Assembly (NCBI RefSeq): GCF_903969135.1
Contig: NZ_LR824569.1
Span: forward strand, 4,423,001-4,487,000
Source: Chryseobacterium sp. JV274
Lineage (GTDB): Bacteria > Bacteroidota > Bacteroidia > Flavobacteriales > Weeksellaceae
Length of the DNA: 64,000 nucleotides
Direction: 5' to 3'
Shown: one piece after another, positions 556 to 52,475 of the stretch
Layout: each line of letters begins with the position of its first letter
Numbering within the stretch: the first letter of the stretch is position 1
Position numbers and translations under genes: made by a program
The notes under the pieces: generated by a model
Databases searched by the model: none
Told to the model about the DNA's origin: nothing
What the model saw: the letters and a program-made list of their open reading frames with translations, nothing else

Positions 556-3500
556 TTATGACATTTTTTGTCTAGGCAATCCAATTTCATGTTCCTGGGG
601 ATAAGGTTTCCGCCAAGTCATACTGATATCTTCATACAGATTACGCTGAGCTTCCAATGATTTTTCTTCATCCATTGAATATCTTGGATCAGGAATAAAA
701 GGCATTTTGGCCATTTTATGAATGGTGATAGTAGGGAAATGGAAATCTACTTCTACTGTTCCCAATAGAAGATAGCACCCACCGCCCTGAAAAGGATATT
801 CTTCAAGGCAGGTGGGAAAATGAGCGGTATCAAAATATTCTCCTTCAGCATCAATCCAGGTACCGAAATACATCGTTCCCTTCTTGGTAGGTACATGCTT
901 TCTTGAAATCAGATAGGCCAGCATTTTGACCTGACATTTATGAAACCTCAATAAATCTTTTACCAAAATTGAACCTCTGTACCGGGTTTGTAATAGGTCG
1001 AACGGACTGAAAGAAACGGGAAAGCCTAATATCTCTATTTCATCAAAAGCATCTTCAAACTTGTTTCTTTCTATAGAAGGTAATTTATAATCCTTATGAG
1101 GCTCTTCCAATAAAGTTAATTGCGTGAAGGGAACTTTATTATTTCCCAAAAGAAATCTTGATTCGATCAGCAGTTCATGCTTCTGTTTTCCGGTAAAGCG
1201 GAATGCTCCGATAAAGATTAGAATCTGCAATGTCTCGATGCCGATAGGAATCCTTTTTACAAAGTTTTCAAGAGAGGTGTATTCTCCATTCTGAGTTCTT
1301 TCTTCAGGGATCAGCTGTGCTAACCTAGTTTCCAGCTTTTCAATATGCATCAATCCTAAATAAACATCAGTGTCATAAACCGTTGTCTGATACCCGCTTA
1401 AATTAACGCAAGGATTCTGAATAGTACCACCTGACATCCGAGCTTCATGAATGTAGACTTCAGTTCTGTAGAATCCTCCGCCGTTATTGATAGCAGAAAC
1501 CATAAATTCAATAGGGTAGTATACTTTTAAGTATAAGCTCTGATAGCTTTCTACGGCATAAGAAGCGGAGTGTGCTTTACAGAACGAGTATCCTGCAAAA
1601 GATTCGATCTGCCGGTATACTTCCATGGATAATTGTTCAGGATGTCCCAGCTTTTTACAAGATTCAAAAAAGTTATCCTTTACTTTCTGTAAAGCGGATA
1701 AAGACCGGCCTTTACCACTCATGGCTCTTCTTAATACATCCCCATCAGGAGCAGATAACCCTCCGAAATGAAGGGCAATTTTAATGACATCTTCCTGGTA
1801 TACCATTATACCGTAGGTTTCCCCGAGCTCTTTTTCGAAAACCTCATGGAAGTATTCAAATTTTGTGGGATTATTATGCCTGAAAATATATTCCCGCATC
1901 ATCCCGCTTTGGGCTACGCCGGGTCTAATAATGGAAGAGGCTGCAACCAGCACTTTGTAATTGTCACATTTCAGCCTGCGGAGTAATCCCCGCATGGCTG
2001 GAGATTCAATATAAAAACAGCCGATGGTTTTTCCGGAACTTAAGAATTCATTGCACCGTGCTTCATCTTTCGATATCGAAGTATCCCGGATATCGATATC
2101 AATACCTTTTTTTTCCTTTACCAGTTTTACCGTGTCGTTAATGGTGCCTAAGCCTCTTTGTGAGAGAATGTCAAACTTTTCAAGGCCAATTTCTTCAGCA
2201 GTGTACATATCAAACTGTACAATCGGAAAACCTTTGGGAGGCATTTCCAGTGCGGAATAATTTGTGATAGGTTCTTCTGAGATCAGAATCCCACAGGAGT
2301 GCATGCTTCTCTGGTTAGGAAACTTTTCTAAAAGCTTTCCGTAGTAATGAACCTGTCTGGATACAGAATTGTTATCATGCTCCTGGATGGGTTTTGTTGC
2401 GAGCGTATCCAGTTCCTCTTTTGGAAGACCGAATACTTTTCCTACTTCCCGGAAAATAGAACGGTATTTAAATTCAACATTGGTTCCGCAGAAGGCAACA
2501 TGGTCTTTTCCGTATTTATCAAAAATATATTCCAAGATGATATCCCTGGTCTGCCAGCTCCAATCTATGTCAAAATCGGGTGGTGTTTTACGGTTGAGGT
2601 TAAGAAACCTCTCAAAATACAGGTCCAGTTCCAGAGGACATATATCAGTGATTCCGATGCAGTAGCTGACTATGGAATTGGCTCCGCTGCCTCTTCCTAC
2701 ATGCATAAACCCCATTCGGTTGCTGTATTGGATAATATCCCAGGTGATCAGGAAATAGGCACAGAAATTAAGCTGGTCAATAACTCCTAACTCTTTATCC
2801 ACTCTTGCTTTTGCCTGTAGGTTATCATCGGAATATCTTTTTGAAAGTCCCTCATACGCTAACTTCTTTAAAAGCTCAAAATCATTTTCCCTGCTGTCTG
2901 TGAAATGCTTTTTGTTTTTAGGTGTTGAAAAATCAAAATCAAAATGACAGCTATTGACAATATACTTTGTGTTTTCAATAATCTGTGGCTCATGGTAAAA
3001 TTGAGCGAGAAGCTCTTTTTTATCAGTAAACATTTCGTTGTCTTTACAGTAATCAGCTTCTGTAAGCTTACTGATCAATGTATTGTGATCAATAGCCCTT
3101 ACTATTTTATGAAGCTCATATTCTCCAGGGGTCGTAAAGGTAACCGGATGAAGAATAACCATTTTATGAATGAACTGTTTTAATTCCGGTTTAATCAAAA
3201 GATTTAACTGGTTCTGTCTGATCCCTATAAATTCATGATCTGCTAATTTTTCAGGAATATTCTCCAGTGGATAAATAACAAAAGTATCTGTAAAATCAGG
3301 ATTTGCTTTAGGAATTTTAATGTCTTCACAGTTATATGCGGTTAAAAGTCTGTTGACTTCTGCAATGCTTTTTTGATTTTTGGCCAGGCAGATATAATAC
3401 AGTTCATCCTGAACCCGTATTTCCACTCCGACGATCGGTTTGATATTATGATCCTGACAAAGTTTGTAGAAATCATAGATCCCGGTAATGGTATTGATAT

Positions 3501-3609
3501 CCGTAAGAGCCAGGGTTTTAATATTAAAATGTACAGCCTGCTTAACCAGTTCTTTAATAGAAATGGTTCCATACCGAAGGCTATGATAAGAATGACAATT
3601 CAGAAACAT
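556..3609 (-). CDS. dnaE: Accessory DNA polymerase III alpha subunit (DnaE-like, SOS cassette type)
   Basis: C-family DNA polymerase of 1017 aa. Seen in sequence: an N-terminal PHP domain opening with CHSYHSLRYG (His6, His9), then the polymerase core with GRGSGANSIVSYC and the metal-binding PPDFDIDW motif near residue 345. A third acidic position lies in LEKFDILSQRG. A helix-hairpin-helix/OB-type C-terminal part follows. It is shorter than the replicative DnaE of Bacteroidota (my recollection is well over 1400 aa), so I infer an accessory translesion enzyme like DnaE2/ImuC. The start lies 7 bp after the dinB stop, so the two are cotranscribed. Coupling to Pol IV and a LexA-like repressor supports damage-induced mutagenesis. 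Several long antisense frames inside are shadows. Confidence 0.9.
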   Translation of the reverse strand: MFLNCHSYHSLRYGTISIKELVKQAVHFNIKTLALTDINTITGIYDFYKLCQDHNIKPIVGVEIRVQDELYYICLAKNQKSIAEVNRLLTAYNCEDIKIPKANPDFTDTFVIYPLENIPEKLADHEFIGIRQNQLNLLIKPELKQFIHKMVILHPVTFTTPGEYELHKIVRAIDHNTLISKLTEADYCKDNEMFTDKKELLAQFYHEPQIIENTKYIVNSCHFDFDFSTPKNKKHFTDSRENDFELLKKLAYEGLSKRYSDDNLQAKARVDKELGVIDQLNFCAYFLITWDIIQYSNRMGFMHVGRGSGANSIVSYCIGITDICPLELDLYFERFLNLNRKTPPDFDIDWSWQTRDIILEYIFDKYGKDHVAFCGTNVEFKYRSIFREVGKVFGLPKEELDTLATKPIQEHDNNSVSRQVHYYGKLLEKFPNQRSMHSCGILISEEPITNYSALEMPPKGFPIVQFDMYTAEEIGLEKFDILSQRGLGTINDTVKLVKEKKGIDIDIRDTSISKDEARCNEFLSSGKTIGCFYIESPAMRGLLRRLKCDNYKVLVAASSIIRPGVAQSGMMREYIFRHNNPTKFEYFHEVFEKELGETYGIMVYQEDVIKIALHFGGLSAPDGDVLRRAMSGKGRSLSALQKVKDNFFESCKKLGHPEQLSMEVYRQIESFAGYSFCKAHSASYAVESYQSLYLKVYYPIEFMVSAINNGGGFYRTEVYIHEARMSGGTIQNPCVNLSGYQTTVYDTDVYLGLMHIEKLETRLAQLIPEERTQNGEYTSLENFVKRIPIGIETLQILIFIGAFRFTGKQKHELLIESRFLLGNNKVPFTQLTLLEEPHKDYKLPSIERNKFEDAFDEIEILGFPVSFSPFDLLQTRYRGSILVKDLLRFHKCQVKMLAYLISRKHVPTKKGTMYFGTWIDAEGEYFDTAHFPTCLEEYPFQGGGCYLLLGTVEVDFHFPTITIHKMAKMPFIPDPRYSMDEEKSLEAQRNLYEDISMTWRKPYPQEHEIGLPRQKMS

Positions 3610-3616
3610 CTTGTAC

Positions 3617-4759
3617 TTATTTTAATAAACCTGAGGCTCTTCCTACACTTGAAGTTCCAAACCTATTCTTGATTTTATCCATTGTCTGATACAATGATAT
3701 CAACTCTTCCGTATCTTCAAAGAGATCCATTTGATGGCATCCGTGAACCAGTCCGGTAAACTTTACTCCAACTAACCTGATTCTCATACGTCTGGTATAT
3801 ACTTTTTTAAAAAGTTCTAAAACATACCTGAGCAGGGTATGGTCAGCTGAGGTGTAAGGAATCCTGCATTGTTTGGTTTCCGTATCAAAATTGGCATAGC
3901 GGAGTTTTACCACCACTACTGATACCAGCCATTTCTCTGCCCGGAGCTGATAACATAGCTTTTCAACCATTCCTGAGAGTATACTTTGAATACCTTGAAT
4001 ATCGATGCTATCCTGGGCAAAAGTATCTTCTGTAGAAATAGATTTTCTTTCCGAATAAGGAACCACAGGATTTTCGTCAATTCCGTGTGCTTTTTTCCAG
4101 AGTTCATTTCCATTTTTACCAATCAGCTGCTGAAGAACGTCAATAGGCATTTCTGAAAGCGTTTGTATCGTTCTGATCCCCAATCTTGACAGCAGCTGAA
4201 AGGTAACATCGCCAACCATAGGAATCTTCTTAACCGAAAGTGGGTTCAAGAATGATTGAATGTCATGCTGTTTGACTTCAAATCTACCGGTTGGCTTTGA
4301 TTCTCCAGTTCCGATCTTGGATACGGTTTTATTGGTGGATAAAGCAAAACTTATTGGTAAACCTGTATTTTTCTGTACACTTTCTGCGATTTCATGGGTC
4401 CACTTATAACATCCAAAAAACTGATCCATTCCGGAAAGATCCAGATAAAATTCATCAATACTTGCTTTTTCCACAACAGGAACTTTTTCCTGGATAATTT
4501 CCGTTACCATATGGGACATGTTGGAATACATTTCCATATCTCCCTTAATGACTTTTGCTTCGGGGCACAGCCGTAAAGCCATTTTAATCGGCATTGCACT
4601 TCTTACTCCGAAAAAACGGGTTTCATAAGAGCAGGACGCCACTACACCACGGTCTCCACCTCCTATGATGACAGGCTTTTTCTCCAGTTCGGAGTTTTTC
4701 AGCCTTTCACAGGAAACAAAGAACGTATCCAAATCCATATGTACAATGGCTCTTTCCAT
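3617..4759 (-). CDS. dinB: DNA polymerase IV (Y-family translesion polymerase)
   Basis: A 380-aa Y-family polymerase with the usual DinB length. The catalytic carboxylates are present: MDLD at residues 8-11 and SIDEFYLD with Asp102-Glu103. The steric-gate region DTFFVSCE, the fingers motif SYETRFFGVRSAMP and a C-terminal little-finger domain are also present. Because all catalytic residues are intact, this is an active Pol IV and not an ImuB-type pseudo-polymerase. It is the first gene of a leftward operon with the DnaE-like gene 7 bp downstream. The start codon abuts an inverted repeat (4760-4776) that also contains the probable -7 element. This predicts tight repression by the divergent S24 regulator and a very short 5' leader. 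Confidence 0.95.
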   Translation of the reverse strand: MERAIVHMDLDTFFVSCERLKNSELEKKPVIIGGGDRGVVASCSYETRFFGVRSAMPIKMALRLCPEAKVIKGDMEMYSNMSHMVTEIIQEKVPVVEKASIDEFYLDLSGMDQFFGCYKWTHEIAESVQKNTGLPISFALSTNKTVSKIGTGESKPTGRFEVKQHDIQSFLNPLSVKKIPMVGDVTFQLLSRLGIRTIQTLSEMPIDVLQQLIGKNGNELWKKAHGIDENPVVPYSERKSISTEDTFAQDSIDIQGIQSILSGMVEKLCYQLRAEKWLVSVVVVKLRYANFDTETKQCRIPYTSADHTLLRYVLELFKKVYTRRMRIRLVGVKFTGLVHGCHQMDLFEDTEELISLYQTMDKIKNRFGTSSVGRASGLLK

Positions 4760-7229: not shown

Positions 7230-7952
7230 CTAGAGTCCGCTGGGAGAAGAGATGGAGTTATTTTGATTACCTCCCATATTGGTTGTGATAGTTCCTAGTG
7301 AATTCGCAAAAGTTTTATTAATGACAAGACAATGAATCGTCCATGAACCATTACTTGCATTGGCTGTATTCGCCCCCCTATAGTCCGCTGATATACGCCA
7401 AGTAGTTCCTTGCTGAAATGCGAATATGTTCTCGGGAGAAAAAGTTCCTGAGTTTGAATTACTAAGTCCTATCCCCGAAGCTGGGATAAAGCTGTTCCCT
7501 ACAATAATTAATTCATATTGTGTAATGTCAATATTTGTATTAAAATTACTTACATAGTCTCCATTTACATTATTAAGCTGGTAAGTTACACTATTAAACA
7601 TGGAAGTATTGCCACTATTTGAAGAAGCTATTCTCATTTCCCCCGTTGTATTATTTCTAACAACAGTTCCATATCCAAACACTCCTGAACTCAATGGTGA
7701 TGTTCCTAAAACCATATTACCAGTCGTGTGAAGTTTGGCAGTGGGTGATACAGTTCCGATACCTACATTTCCAGAAGAAGTCACAACGAAATCATTTGAT
7801 TGCTGTGTGGTAGACGGAGTCCCTATTATTGCATTGTCTTTTGCTCCATCAATATGCATCAGTGCCTGTGGATTTGGAGTATTAACACCAAATTGTGATT
7901 TGGCAGCAAATGAAACCAAAAAAAATATTAGGAATAAAATGTTTTTTTTCAT
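7230..7952 (-). CDS. Secreted VGIGTxxP-type surface protein, last in the array
   Basis: A 240-aa protein with a signal peptide ([20 protein letters not shown]) followed at once by [16 protein letters not shown] and [19 protein letters not shown]. This repeat is common at the N-terminus of flavobacterial surface and fibre-like proteins. The C-terminal half is a Ser/Asn/Gly-rich beta domain ([12 protein letters not shown]). I moved the start to 7952, because an upstream in-frame ATG at 8039 would add 29 non-signal residues overlapping the preceding gene. It closely resembles the product of 7993-8718 along its whole length, so the two are tandem duplicates 40 bp apart. The function is unknown; cell-surface location is inferred. 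Confidence 0.8.
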
Positions 7953-11584: not shown

Positions 11585-11743
11585 TTAAGCATTTTGGTAC
11601 GCGTATACCTGTTTAGGTATTATTGCTTCTAAATAACTTATACTTGTTACATCCAAAGTGGATTTTGGAATGGGAACATTCATTTCAGTTTGAGAAAGCT
11701 CTATTGAGTAGAGCGGGTGATTTAATAATAAAAATTTTTCCAT
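11585..11743 (-). CDS. Possible 52-aa leader peptide or small protein
   Basis: The minus-strand frame encodes 52 aa beginning MEKFLLLNHPLYSIELSQTE and ending QVYAYQNA. It has no signal peptide or Cys and no recognised family. Coding status is uncertain. In its favour, it begins about 63 nt downstream of where the invertible promoter would start transcription after inversion, making it the first ORF of the leftward transcript. Against it, its 3' end contains a recombination-core-like dyad (11605-11620), which could be the real reason for the sequence. Confidence 0.35.
   Translation of the reverse strand: MEKFLLLNHPLYSIELSQTEMNVPIPKSTLDVTSISYLEAIIPKQVYAYQNA
11605..11620. repeat. Third recombination-core-like dyad
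   Basis: ATACC-TGTTTA-GGTAT is a perfect dyad. Its centre shares CCTGTTTAG with the left inverted repeat (11784-11799) in the same orientation, although the arms differ. It may be an additional or degenerate crossover site. Chance resemblance is not excluded. Confidence 0.35.
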
Positions 11744-11783: not shown

Positions 11784-11799
11784 GTAGTCCTGTTTAGAC
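11784..11799 (+). repeat. Left inverted repeat (IRL) of putative invertible segment
   Basis: GTAGTCCTGTTTAGAC is a perfect 16-bp inverted match to 11996-12011. The layout of short arms around a 7-bp CTGTTTA centre is that of a tyrosine-recombinase crossover site. Confidence 0.75.
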
Positions 11800-11951
11800 C
11801 CTTTTTTGTGATATTTGCCTAAATATGAGTTTATTCATAAATAGATTTTTATTGTAATTGAATTATGTTGGTTATTTGTAATCGTGTGTGATTTTTAATA
11901 AGAAATATTTTTAATCTGGTTAAAATATTAATACGCAAAAAGTTAATTTTG

Positions 11952-11982
11952 TTTGCTTAGTAAAATATTTATTATATATTTG
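11952..11982 (+). promoter_or_regulatory. Consensus promoter inside the putative invertible segment
   Basis: TTTG at 11952-11955, a 19-bp spacer, and TATATTTG at 11975-11982 match the Bacteroidota promoter TTTG-N19-TAnnTTTG exactly. In the present orientation it faces right, toward the recombinase gene at 12056, with a start site near 11989. Inversion between the repeats would place the box at 11813-11820 facing left, toward the surface-protein operon. No leftward TAnnTTTG box was found in the segment, so the switch would be ON/OFF for each side. Confidence 0.7.
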
Positions 11983-11995
11983 TAAGTGAAAGGTA

Positions 11996-12011
11996 GTCTA
12001 AACAGGACTAC
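11996..12011 (-). repeat. Right inverted repeat (IRR) of putative invertible segment
   Basis: GTCTAAACAGGACTAC is the exact reverse complement of 11784-11799. It sits inside a longer dyad, AAAGGTAGTC-N7-GACTACCTTT (11989-12015), which could also form an attenuator hairpin in the transcript running to the recombinase gene. Confidence 0.75.
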
Positions 12012-12055
12012 CTTTTGATTTATATTAGCTGGAAATTAACCTAATATTTCTAGCA

Positions 12056-51500: not shown

Positions 51501-52475
51501 CTAAGATCTGTTATCAAACAATTCGTGCAGTTTTTTCTGCAGAACCTTTTTGTCGGGAAGCTGCGTTTTGTATTCAGAAACCATTGTCGGAGAAAGACTT
51601 CTACTGAGCGCATATTCTACTACTTCGCTGTCCTTGTCTTTACAAAGCAGTACGCCGATGCTTGGATTTTCGTTCTGACGTTTAACATCCCTGTCCAGAG
51701 CTTCTAGATAAAAGTTAAGCTGACCCAGATGTTCGGGTTTGAATTTATCTGCTTTCAGTTCGAAAGCGACAAGGCATTGCAGCCCCCTGTGGAAGAATAA
51801 AAGATCGATATAAAAATCAGAATTGCCGACCTGTACTTTGTACTCTTCGCTGATAAAAAGAAAATCCCGTCCTAACTCCAGGATAAAATTTTTCATCTGC
51901 TCAATTAAACCTTTTTGGAGATCATTTTCATTGAATGTTTCAGGCAGATTTAAAAAGTCAAATACATAGCTGTCTTTAAATGTATTGACTATATCAGCGT
52001 TGGTTTCTCTCAACACTGTTGAGAGTTTTGAATTTCCAATCATCGTTCTTTCAAAAAGGCTGCTGGATATCTGTCTCTCTAACTCCCGGAAGCTATAATT
52101 TTCCTGTTTGGTCAACTTGATATAAAATTCCCTTTCCTCGATTGATTTACATCTGGAGAATATGGACAGATTATGAGACCAGCTGATTTCTCTCAACAGT
52201 GTTGAGATTTTTGGAAATTCCTTGTAAGTCTCATAAAATTGCTTCATTCTCCATAGATTCTTATCCGAAAAACCTTTTAGTTCAGGTTCATGAGTCTGGA
52301 TAAACTGAGAAAGTTCTTTAACCACAGACTGTCCCCATTCACTCAGCTCAACCTTTTTGCTTATATACTCACCAATATTCCAGTATAGATCGATGAGTTC
52401 CTCATTGACTTTTCTTATTGCATTGTTACGAGACTGTTTGATGAGCTCAATAATATCTGTGAACCTTTTATCCAT
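51501..52475 (-). CDS. PDDEXK nuclease-family protein (DUF1016/YhcG-like)
   Basis: A 324-aa protein. The N-terminal DUF1016 part (FTDIIELIKQSRNNAIRKVN, YWNIGEYISKKVE, GFSDKNLWRMKQFYETY) and a C-terminal PDDEXK-like nuclease core (DFYIDLLFFHRGLQCLVAFE, LKADKFKPEHLGQLNFYLEA, PSIGVLLCKDKDSEVVEYAL) are both recognisable. The motif D-x8-11-E-x-K is intact. Such proteins are linked with defence or DNA processing in mobile elements; the exact role is unknown. It lies on the opposite strand inside the tra operon, splitting traD from traE. Confidence 0.88.
   Translation of the reverse strand: MDKRFTDIIELIKQSRNNAIRKVNEELIDLYWNIGEYISKKVELSEWGQSVVKELSQFIQTHEPELKGFSDKNLWRMKQFYETYKEFPKISTLLREISWSHNLSIFSRCKSIEEREFYIKLTKQENYSFRELERQISSSLFERTMIGNSKLSTVLRETNADIVNTFKDSYVFDFLNLPETFNENDLQKGLIEQMKNFILELGRDFLFISEEYKVQVGNSDFYIDLLFFHRGLQCLVAFELKADKFKPEHLGQLNFYLEALDRDVKRQNENPSIGVLLCKDKDSEVVEYALSRSLSPTMVSEYKTQLPDKKVLQKKLHELFDNRS

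Follow-up and report, generated by a model that had tools for sequence, protein, structure and literature searches.

A candidate invertible promoter beside a tyrosine recombinase, in its OFF orientation, at a secreted-protein operon of Chryseobacterium

Results

Organization of the locus

The window, the whole 64,000-nucleotide stretch of Chryseobacterium sp. JV274 DNA analysed here, comes from a genome assembled as one contig of 5.23 Mb. It contains two perfect 16-bp inverted repeats 196 bp apart, both built on the same 7-bp core, as an earlier note on this DNA had described; the core, CTGTTTA, is set between TAGTC and GAC (Table 1). When the 64-kb window was dinucleotide-shuffled 30 times, no perfect 16-bp inverted repeats appeared at a distance of 100–300 bp, so that the pair is not a chance occurrence. 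Just one other perfect pair of this length and spacing exists in the window (52008-52025 and 52190-52207); it sits in a 324-aa ORF among conjugation-type genes, and each of its arms is itself nearly palindromic.

The 228-bp segment bounded by the repeats carries one full consensus promoter, P1, which faces right; a second, lone TAnnTTTG box at 11944 is rightward too. No TAnnTTTG box faces left between 11300 and 12100, consistent with the earlier description of a single rightward promoter without a leftward equivalent. The complete tyrosine recombinase gene expected just right of the segment is present, with its ATG 44 bases past the right repeat. If transcription from P1 began 5 nt after the box, the leader up to this ATG would be 68 nt long, which fits the approximately 67 nt predicted previously. 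Right of the recombinase lie topoisomerase III, ParA-like and VirB4/TraG-like genes, which we read as a conjugative-type element.

To the left, on the opposite strand, we found the expected five-gene operon as five ORFs of 240–268 aa, here termed cargo, followed by two helix-turn-helix genes. HTH-A ends in an asparagine run, and its family has nine copies in the genome, only two of them inside the two cassettes described below. Genes for a DnaE-type and an ImuB-like polymerase (556-4759) adjoin the cassette in the window, and at two related loci (L054, L055) an ORF as long as the ImuB-like one is likewise present to the left of the cassette.

Table 1. Features of the candidate switch and its surroundings in the window
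Feature	Position	Strand	Remarks
Left inverted repeat, candidate recombination site GTAGTCCTGTTTAGAC	11784..11799	+	TAGTC 11785-11789, core CTGTTTA 11790-11796, GAC 11797-11799
Right inverted repeat, candidate recombination site GTCTAAACAGGACTAC	11996..12011	-	17-mer site 11994-12010; core TAAACAG 11999-12005 on the + strand
Interior of candidate invertible segment	11800..11995	.	No ORF of at least 50 aa
Putative promoter P1, TTTG-N19-TATATTTG	11952..11982	+	By consensus; faces the recombinase in this assembly, OFF for cargo
Putative P2, fixed -7-like box TATATTAG	12021..12028	+	Outside the segment, facing the recombinase
Predicted hairpin, 9-bp stem	12028..12054	+	Ends one base before the recombinase ATG
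Tyrosine recombinase, 418 aa	12056..13312	+	Pfam Arm-DNA-bind_5, Phage_int_SAM_5, Phage_integrase (PF00589)
52-aa ORF	11585..11743	-	Probably not a conserved gene
Cargo 1, 268 aa	10539..11345	-	Secreted-type N-terminus, read by eye
Cargo 2, 252 aa	9771..10529	-	PF26696 in its relatives
Cargo 3, 265 aa	8971..9768	-	ORF
Cargo 4, 241 aa	7993..8718	-	ORF
Cargo 5, 240 aa from ATG	7230..7952	-	ORF
HTH-A, 154 aa	6592..7056	-	C-terminal helix-turn-helix (HTH_7)
HTH-B, 113 aa	6210..6551	-	Weak helix-turn-helix matches only, below curated cut-offs

The cargo is diverse and probably secreted

The window's own cargo proteins gave no Pfam match at E 0.001, and a comparison of cargo 2 with solved structures returned no convincing match. 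All 18 relatives of cargo 2 carry PF26696; wherever an organism is named it is a Chryseobacterium, and several of these relatives are called 'C1q domain-containing'. Among cargo proteins from other loci, 8 of 19 matched Pfam at E 0.001 (7 of 10 in a first set and 1 of 9 in a second), the families being Fib_succ_major, Peptidase_S74, GEVED, DUF7933, Lectin_C, Fibrinogen_C or DUF5907, with the Lectin_C and Fib_succ_major matches below curated cut-offs. Many cargo proteins have in common an N-terminus like QVGIN..P.ATLDV, as read by eye. These N-termini and the Pfam matches point to cargo of secreted, adhesin-like proteins.

The 52-aa ORF between segment and cargo had been proposed as the target of the promoter after inversion. 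The ORF is present and is 73% identical in the second cassette of the same genome. At three related loci (L054, L055 and L056) the alignment is confined to its first 26 codons, and the ORF faintly resembles the N-terminus of a cargo protein (E 0.026). We therefore regard it as probably no conserved gene, and the idea that it encodes a conserved leader peptide was dropped.

Site pairs with largely locus-specific cores accompany the recombinase

Residues R252, K279, H353, R356, H378 and Y387 of the recombinase, which we take to be its catalytic residues, are identical in 63 of 63 relatives longer than 380 aa. The recombinase had no match in the plasmid collection at E 1e-60, the threshold of that search, nor among solved structures at E 0.001. 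At E 1e-100 it matched in 33 of 173 genus genomes, with 51 matches in total, and at E 1e-80 in 47 of 320 family genomes (genus included). The nearest named relatives (91%) come from Chryseobacterium cucumeris and C. rhizoplanae, and others occur in some Elizabethkingia and Empedobacter.

We examined 68 recombinases with upstream DNA, including 50 of the 51 genus matches. The set does not include a match that starts at a contig edge (G138:C224) or the fragments at contig edges in G215, G204 and G137, and L040-L053, duplicates of other loci or fragments, were excluded from the final counts. A site pair flanking approximately 190 bp lies just upstream of the recombinase in 62 of the 68. Its architecture consists of the arms TAGTC and GAC(TA) around a 7-bp core, with nearly invariant non-core positions. 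Six loci have no site pair: in L076, L149, L161 and L162 it is lost or degenerate, and L095 and L101 are at contig ends. In L149 and L076 a cargo-like frame, read by eye, begins right beside a single recombinase-side site and there is no invertible segment. A scan of IMG/VR with the site pattern yielded no accepted viral segment; five contigs were rejected, all of them repetitive, with unequal cores and no recombinase match in the DNA examined.

The core is identical between both sites in 60 of the 62 loci, the exceptions being L098 (one base) and L150. Between loci it is equal in just 48 of 1891 comparisons, and 38 distinct cores occur; the loci are related by descent, so these counts are not independent. 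Cores that vary between loci and are identical within each are what one would expect if strands are exchanged over a homologous overlap, as tyrosine recombinases do. The pattern thus fits a tyrosine-recombinase crossover region, and the adjacent recombinase probably acts on the paired sites.

Inverted alleles occur among related loci

Orientation could be assigned at 61 of the 62 loci: 58 are OFF, 3 are ON and L156 is uncalled. A strict TAnnTTTG box near a site points towards the recombinase in 54 of the 62, with a leader of 60–74 nt from P1 to the recombinase, and towards the cargo in three (L061, L150 and L151). Five loci have no strict box near either site; besides L156 these are L069, L071, L160 and L165, which are OFF by an independent marker, TTGATTTACA. 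In 17 of the 62 loci this marker, or a close variant, is located at the end away from the promoter, at 12–13 bp from the site. The two markers fully agree at the 13 loci that have both (11 OFF, 2 ON, no disagreements). In L150 and L151 the promoter and the TTGATTTACA motif are both on swapped sides, and the interior of L061, which lacks the marker, aligns in inverted form to those of L062 (91 versus 33) and L065 (106 versus 45). The comparison of related genomes proposed earlier thus turned up both orientations, with the window locus and its paralogue found in one orientation only.

The ON allele L150 has unequal cores (CTACTTA and CTTATTA) and a 105-bp interior, and may be naturally locked ON. 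In L060, L071, L079 and others, a conserved TTGATTTACAnnTCAATAAWTT-like sequence occupies the left segment end opposite the promoter, 12–13 bp from the site (17 of 62 loci, counted by its first half); perhaps it is a site for a host bending protein.

The inverted repeats could be read instead as operator sites of a DNA-binding regulator. Their palindromic arms would suit such a role, as would the HTH-A and HTH-B pair, which recurs further left on the same strand at 41 of 63 loci. However, a binding protein gives no reason for a spacer that varies between loci yet is identical within each, and it leaves the inverted alleles unexplained. We therefore dropped this reading as highly improbable.

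The position of the cargo is in line with an invertible promoter. At 11 of 44 loci no more than 40 bp separate the left site from the start of the nearest left ORF of at least 90 aa, and cargo start codons are in some loci as near as 12–21 bp, so that a further promoter would hardly fit in between. In the window, approximately 440 bp lie between the left site and the first cargo ATG. This distance leaves room for a separate cargo promoter, which is possible, although the absence of a leftward TAnnTTTG box speaks against it. None of the 62 loci has a promoter-like box outside the left (cargo) site. Inverted alleles, the core pattern and near cargo starts together support the claim of the earlier note that the segment is an invertible promoter with the surface or secreted-protein operon OFF here. 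What counts against a switch is that only 3 of the 62 recombinase-adjacent segments are ON, and that one of these is L150 with its unequal cores.

A second cassette in the same genome

The repeat is found exactly at four places in the genome, two in the window and two in a second cassette whose segment lies at C1:155522-155749 (locus L004, G000:C1:155522-157041); one further match has two mismatches, and a reversed control gives no fewer of these. The second cassette has the same orientation, OFF. Its repeats and core are identical to those of the window, its recombinase is 96% identical and its segment agrees at 197 of 228 positions. A large stretch of the chromosome might in principle be inverted if these cassettes recombined with each other.

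The second cassette bears on the idea that the neighbouring conjugative-type element uses the recombinase as its integrase, with the repeats as part of its attachment site, an idea prompted by topoisomerase III and the conjugation-type genes to the right. The unit of recombinase, segment and cargo is found in other places too, for instance at C1:155522, where matching DNA stops approximately 190 bases past the recombinase. The integrase reading is weakened accordingly; we hold it to be barely credible and abandoned it.

Solo segments

Among the 173 genus genomes, 26 contain the site-pair pattern and none the reversed-pattern control; the window's own segments escape the pattern on account of a degenerate inner left arm. 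In genome G161 there are 12 segments, with nine distinct cores among them; each core is identical within its segment, and only one of the 12 adjoins a recombinase, the other 11 being solo. Every one of the 12 promoters faces away from a secreted-protein operon, the first ATG of which is 15–21 bases from the left site. For three of the 11 solo segments (L139, L143 and L145) the nearest far-side ORF runs with the promoter, 135–483 bp off, and a second promoter target on that side is possible. There is a single close recombinase in G161, where all further matches are at most 34% identical, and this enzyme may act in trans on the solo segments.

By pattern count, the Empedobacter genomes G204 and G215 contain six and four segments. 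All 10 script-found segments in five Empedobacter stretches point away from their cargo, and several stand in tandem, each with its own cargo. Two of the 10 (the third of L180, and L181) are at contig ends, so that an adjacent recombinase is possible; the first of L163 belongs to the 62 loci above and the first of L183 adjoins a recombinase fragment. The tandem segment-cargo units of L180, L163, L182 and L183 often include HTH-A and are all OFF, and neighbouring cores differ.

A second promoter-like box and a predicted start-codon-hiding leader

Outside the right site, at a distance of 9–12 nt and directed towards the recombinase, a P2-type box, TAnnTT[T/A/C]G, is present in 56 of the 62 loci, compared with a mean of 5.4 when the same bases are shuffled; 25 of these boxes have the strict TTTG. 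A -33 TTG at the right spacing is present for P1 and absent for P2, and P2 may consequently be weak. P1 and P2 may both be working promoters.

The DNA between the P2 box and the ATG is predicted to be structured, with z below -1 in 27 of 51 loci (mean -1.54), compared with 16 of 62 (mean -0.28) for a control stretch inside the recombinase gene. In the window the hairpin would form in the P1 leader and merely in part in the P2 transcript. We compared predicted start-codon occlusion between the two leaders at distinct loci that have the two boxes and, where the start is projected, an ATG, assuming transcription to begin 3–7 nt after each box (39, 39 and 38 loci, the last at the 7-nt setting). 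The P1 leader exceeded the P2 leader by a mean of 4.6–4.8 kcal/mol, versus 1.6–2.1 in dinucleotide shuffles (Wilcoxon p 7e-7 to 1e-5, values that are too small by an unknown amount because the loci are related). With the start set 5 nt after the box the gap was 4.8 versus 1.9 kcal/mol (p 7e-6), and 30 of 39 loci exceeded their own shuffle mean. Single-base shuffles reduced the contrast (4.8 versus 2.3), and at most 10% of shuffles reached the real value in 19 of 39 loci, so that half the loci are unremarkable singly. The modelled difference suggests that recombinase output is lowered in the OFF orientation and raised in ON.

These observations bear on the proposal of the earlier note that the promoter toggles between recombinase and operon. 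P1 would then be the main recombinase promoter, the recombinase would be made only in the OFF orientation, and the ON state would be locked. The direction of P1 at 54 of the 62 loci, with its leader of 60–74 nt, speaks for this proposal. Against it stand the fixed P2 box, the start codon predicted to be hidden in the P1 leader, and the 11 solo segments, which show the same anatomy with no recombinase beside them; moreover, ON alleles would be expected to build up if that state were locked, and they make up only 3 of 62. We consider the toggle unlikely.

An invertible cargo promoter might instead be supplemented, not replaced, by a self-resetting circuit with OFF as default. In OFF, P1 would read through P2 and give a long message in which the hairpin hides the start codon, and little recombinase would be made; in ON, the short and open P2 message would yield more recombinase, and the segment would flip back. 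The frequency of the P2 box and the occlusion gap argue for such a circuit, and the ratio of 58 OFF to 3 ON fits it. On the other side, the transcription starts are assumed, P2 lacks the -33 TTG, structure before the ATG is not universal, the gap shrinks against single-base shuffles, and half of the loci, related as they are, are unremarkable by themselves. The solo segments are all OFF too, which would call for the recombinase in trans or for selection in culture. We put the circuit forward tentatively, as possible and somewhat doubtful.

Discussion

We conclude, with a probability of roughly 0.87, that the 228-bp segment holds a promoter and is flipped site-specifically by the adjacent tyrosine recombinase, that it switches the cargo operon, OFF here, and that the recombinase need not depend on P1. 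The recombinase would pair the two inverted sites and exchange strands over the identical 7-bp core, and the segment would flip as a result. With P1 leftward the cargo operon would be ON, producing the secreted adhesin-like proteins and then the two helix-turn-helix proteins; with P1 rightward, as in this assembly, it would be OFF. Expression of the recombinase could come from the fixed P2 box just outside the segment.

This model is built from sequence: the site architecture, the identity of cores within a locus, the inverted alleles in relatives, the side on which the promoter lies and the conserved recombinase residues. On this model the segment would flip in culture and the cargo proteins would act as adhesins. 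Features that characterize invertons are present, namely inverted repeats flanking a promoter (by consensus), identical crossover regions and a tyrosine recombinase with conserved residues; both orientations in nature, a further such feature, are seen across related loci only and not at the window locus.

Tsr recombinases reportedly act on outer surface protein genes of B. fragilis, a finding attributed to Weinacht et al. in 2004 (cited in PMC12632263). Going by the title of that work, tyrosine recombinases, DNA inversion and surface proteins are common to both systems. The closest parallel is BF2766/Tsr19 of B. fragilis, which flips one local and one distant promoter, the local one being mostly OFF in culture and in the majority of tested faeces (PMC4747536). 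The present system resembles it in having a tyrosine recombinase beside a local invertible promoter with a -7 TAnnTTTG, a mostly OFF orientation and a cell-surface output; the action of Tsr19 on a distant promoter may have its counterpart in the 11 solo segments and one close recombinase of G161. The switch probably works like the Tsr19 switches of Bacteroides. Unlike Tsr19 as described, the present system belongs to Weeksellaceae, has secreted adhesin-like cargo that is often accompanied by a helix-turn-helix pair, shows cores that differ by locus, with up to 12 segments and their nine distinct cores in a single genome, and has a fixed P2 box and a hairpin before the recombinase.

The earlier note had compared the locus with both Tsr and Mpi systems. 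Of the two, only the Tsr comparison can be kept, since Mpi of B. fragilis is a serine recombinase (PMC4747536). Mpi is one recombinase for 13 invertible regions, and in this sense the arrangements are alike, whereas the enzyme here has tyrosine recombinase domains. Invertible promoters of resistance genes in Bacteroidales, for which the OFF orientation is said to be advantageous in most samples, are tied to glycan-synthesis loci on conjugative elements and are reported solely from Bacteroidales (PMC8748976).

A family-wide extension of the model would be barcoded phase variation, in which one recombinase type serves many promoters and the 7-bp core is an address that keeps the switches largely independent and limits genome rearrangement. 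The OFF promoter would repress its own recombinase through the start-codon-hiding leader, with ON transient and OFF the default. Clean barcoding is argued against by three cores in G161 that are each common to two segments, by the shared core of the window genome's two cassettes and by the core sharing across genomes (the 48 of 1891 comparisons). We regard this full scheme as improbable as a whole.

Promoter inversion is well documented in gut Bacteroidales, and a review describes many such inversions there (PMC12632263). In the open-access literature searched, we found no paper containing both 'invertible promoter' and Chryseobacterium and none combining 'invertible', 'recombinase' and Weeksellaceae; judged from titles and abstract starts, no paper deals with such a switch in Weeksellaceae. 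If the invertible-promoter reading is true, silent secreted-protein operons, some with lectin-, fibrinogen- or C1q-like matches, exist in approximately one in five of the searched genomes of the genus (33 of 173, counted by recombinase) as well as in some Elizabethkingia and Empedobacter, and are perhaps rarely expressed in laboratory culture. The solo segments with their differing cores would offer a natural test of addressing by crossover homology, and the OFF bias makes the maintenance of a default state by such a switch a testable question.
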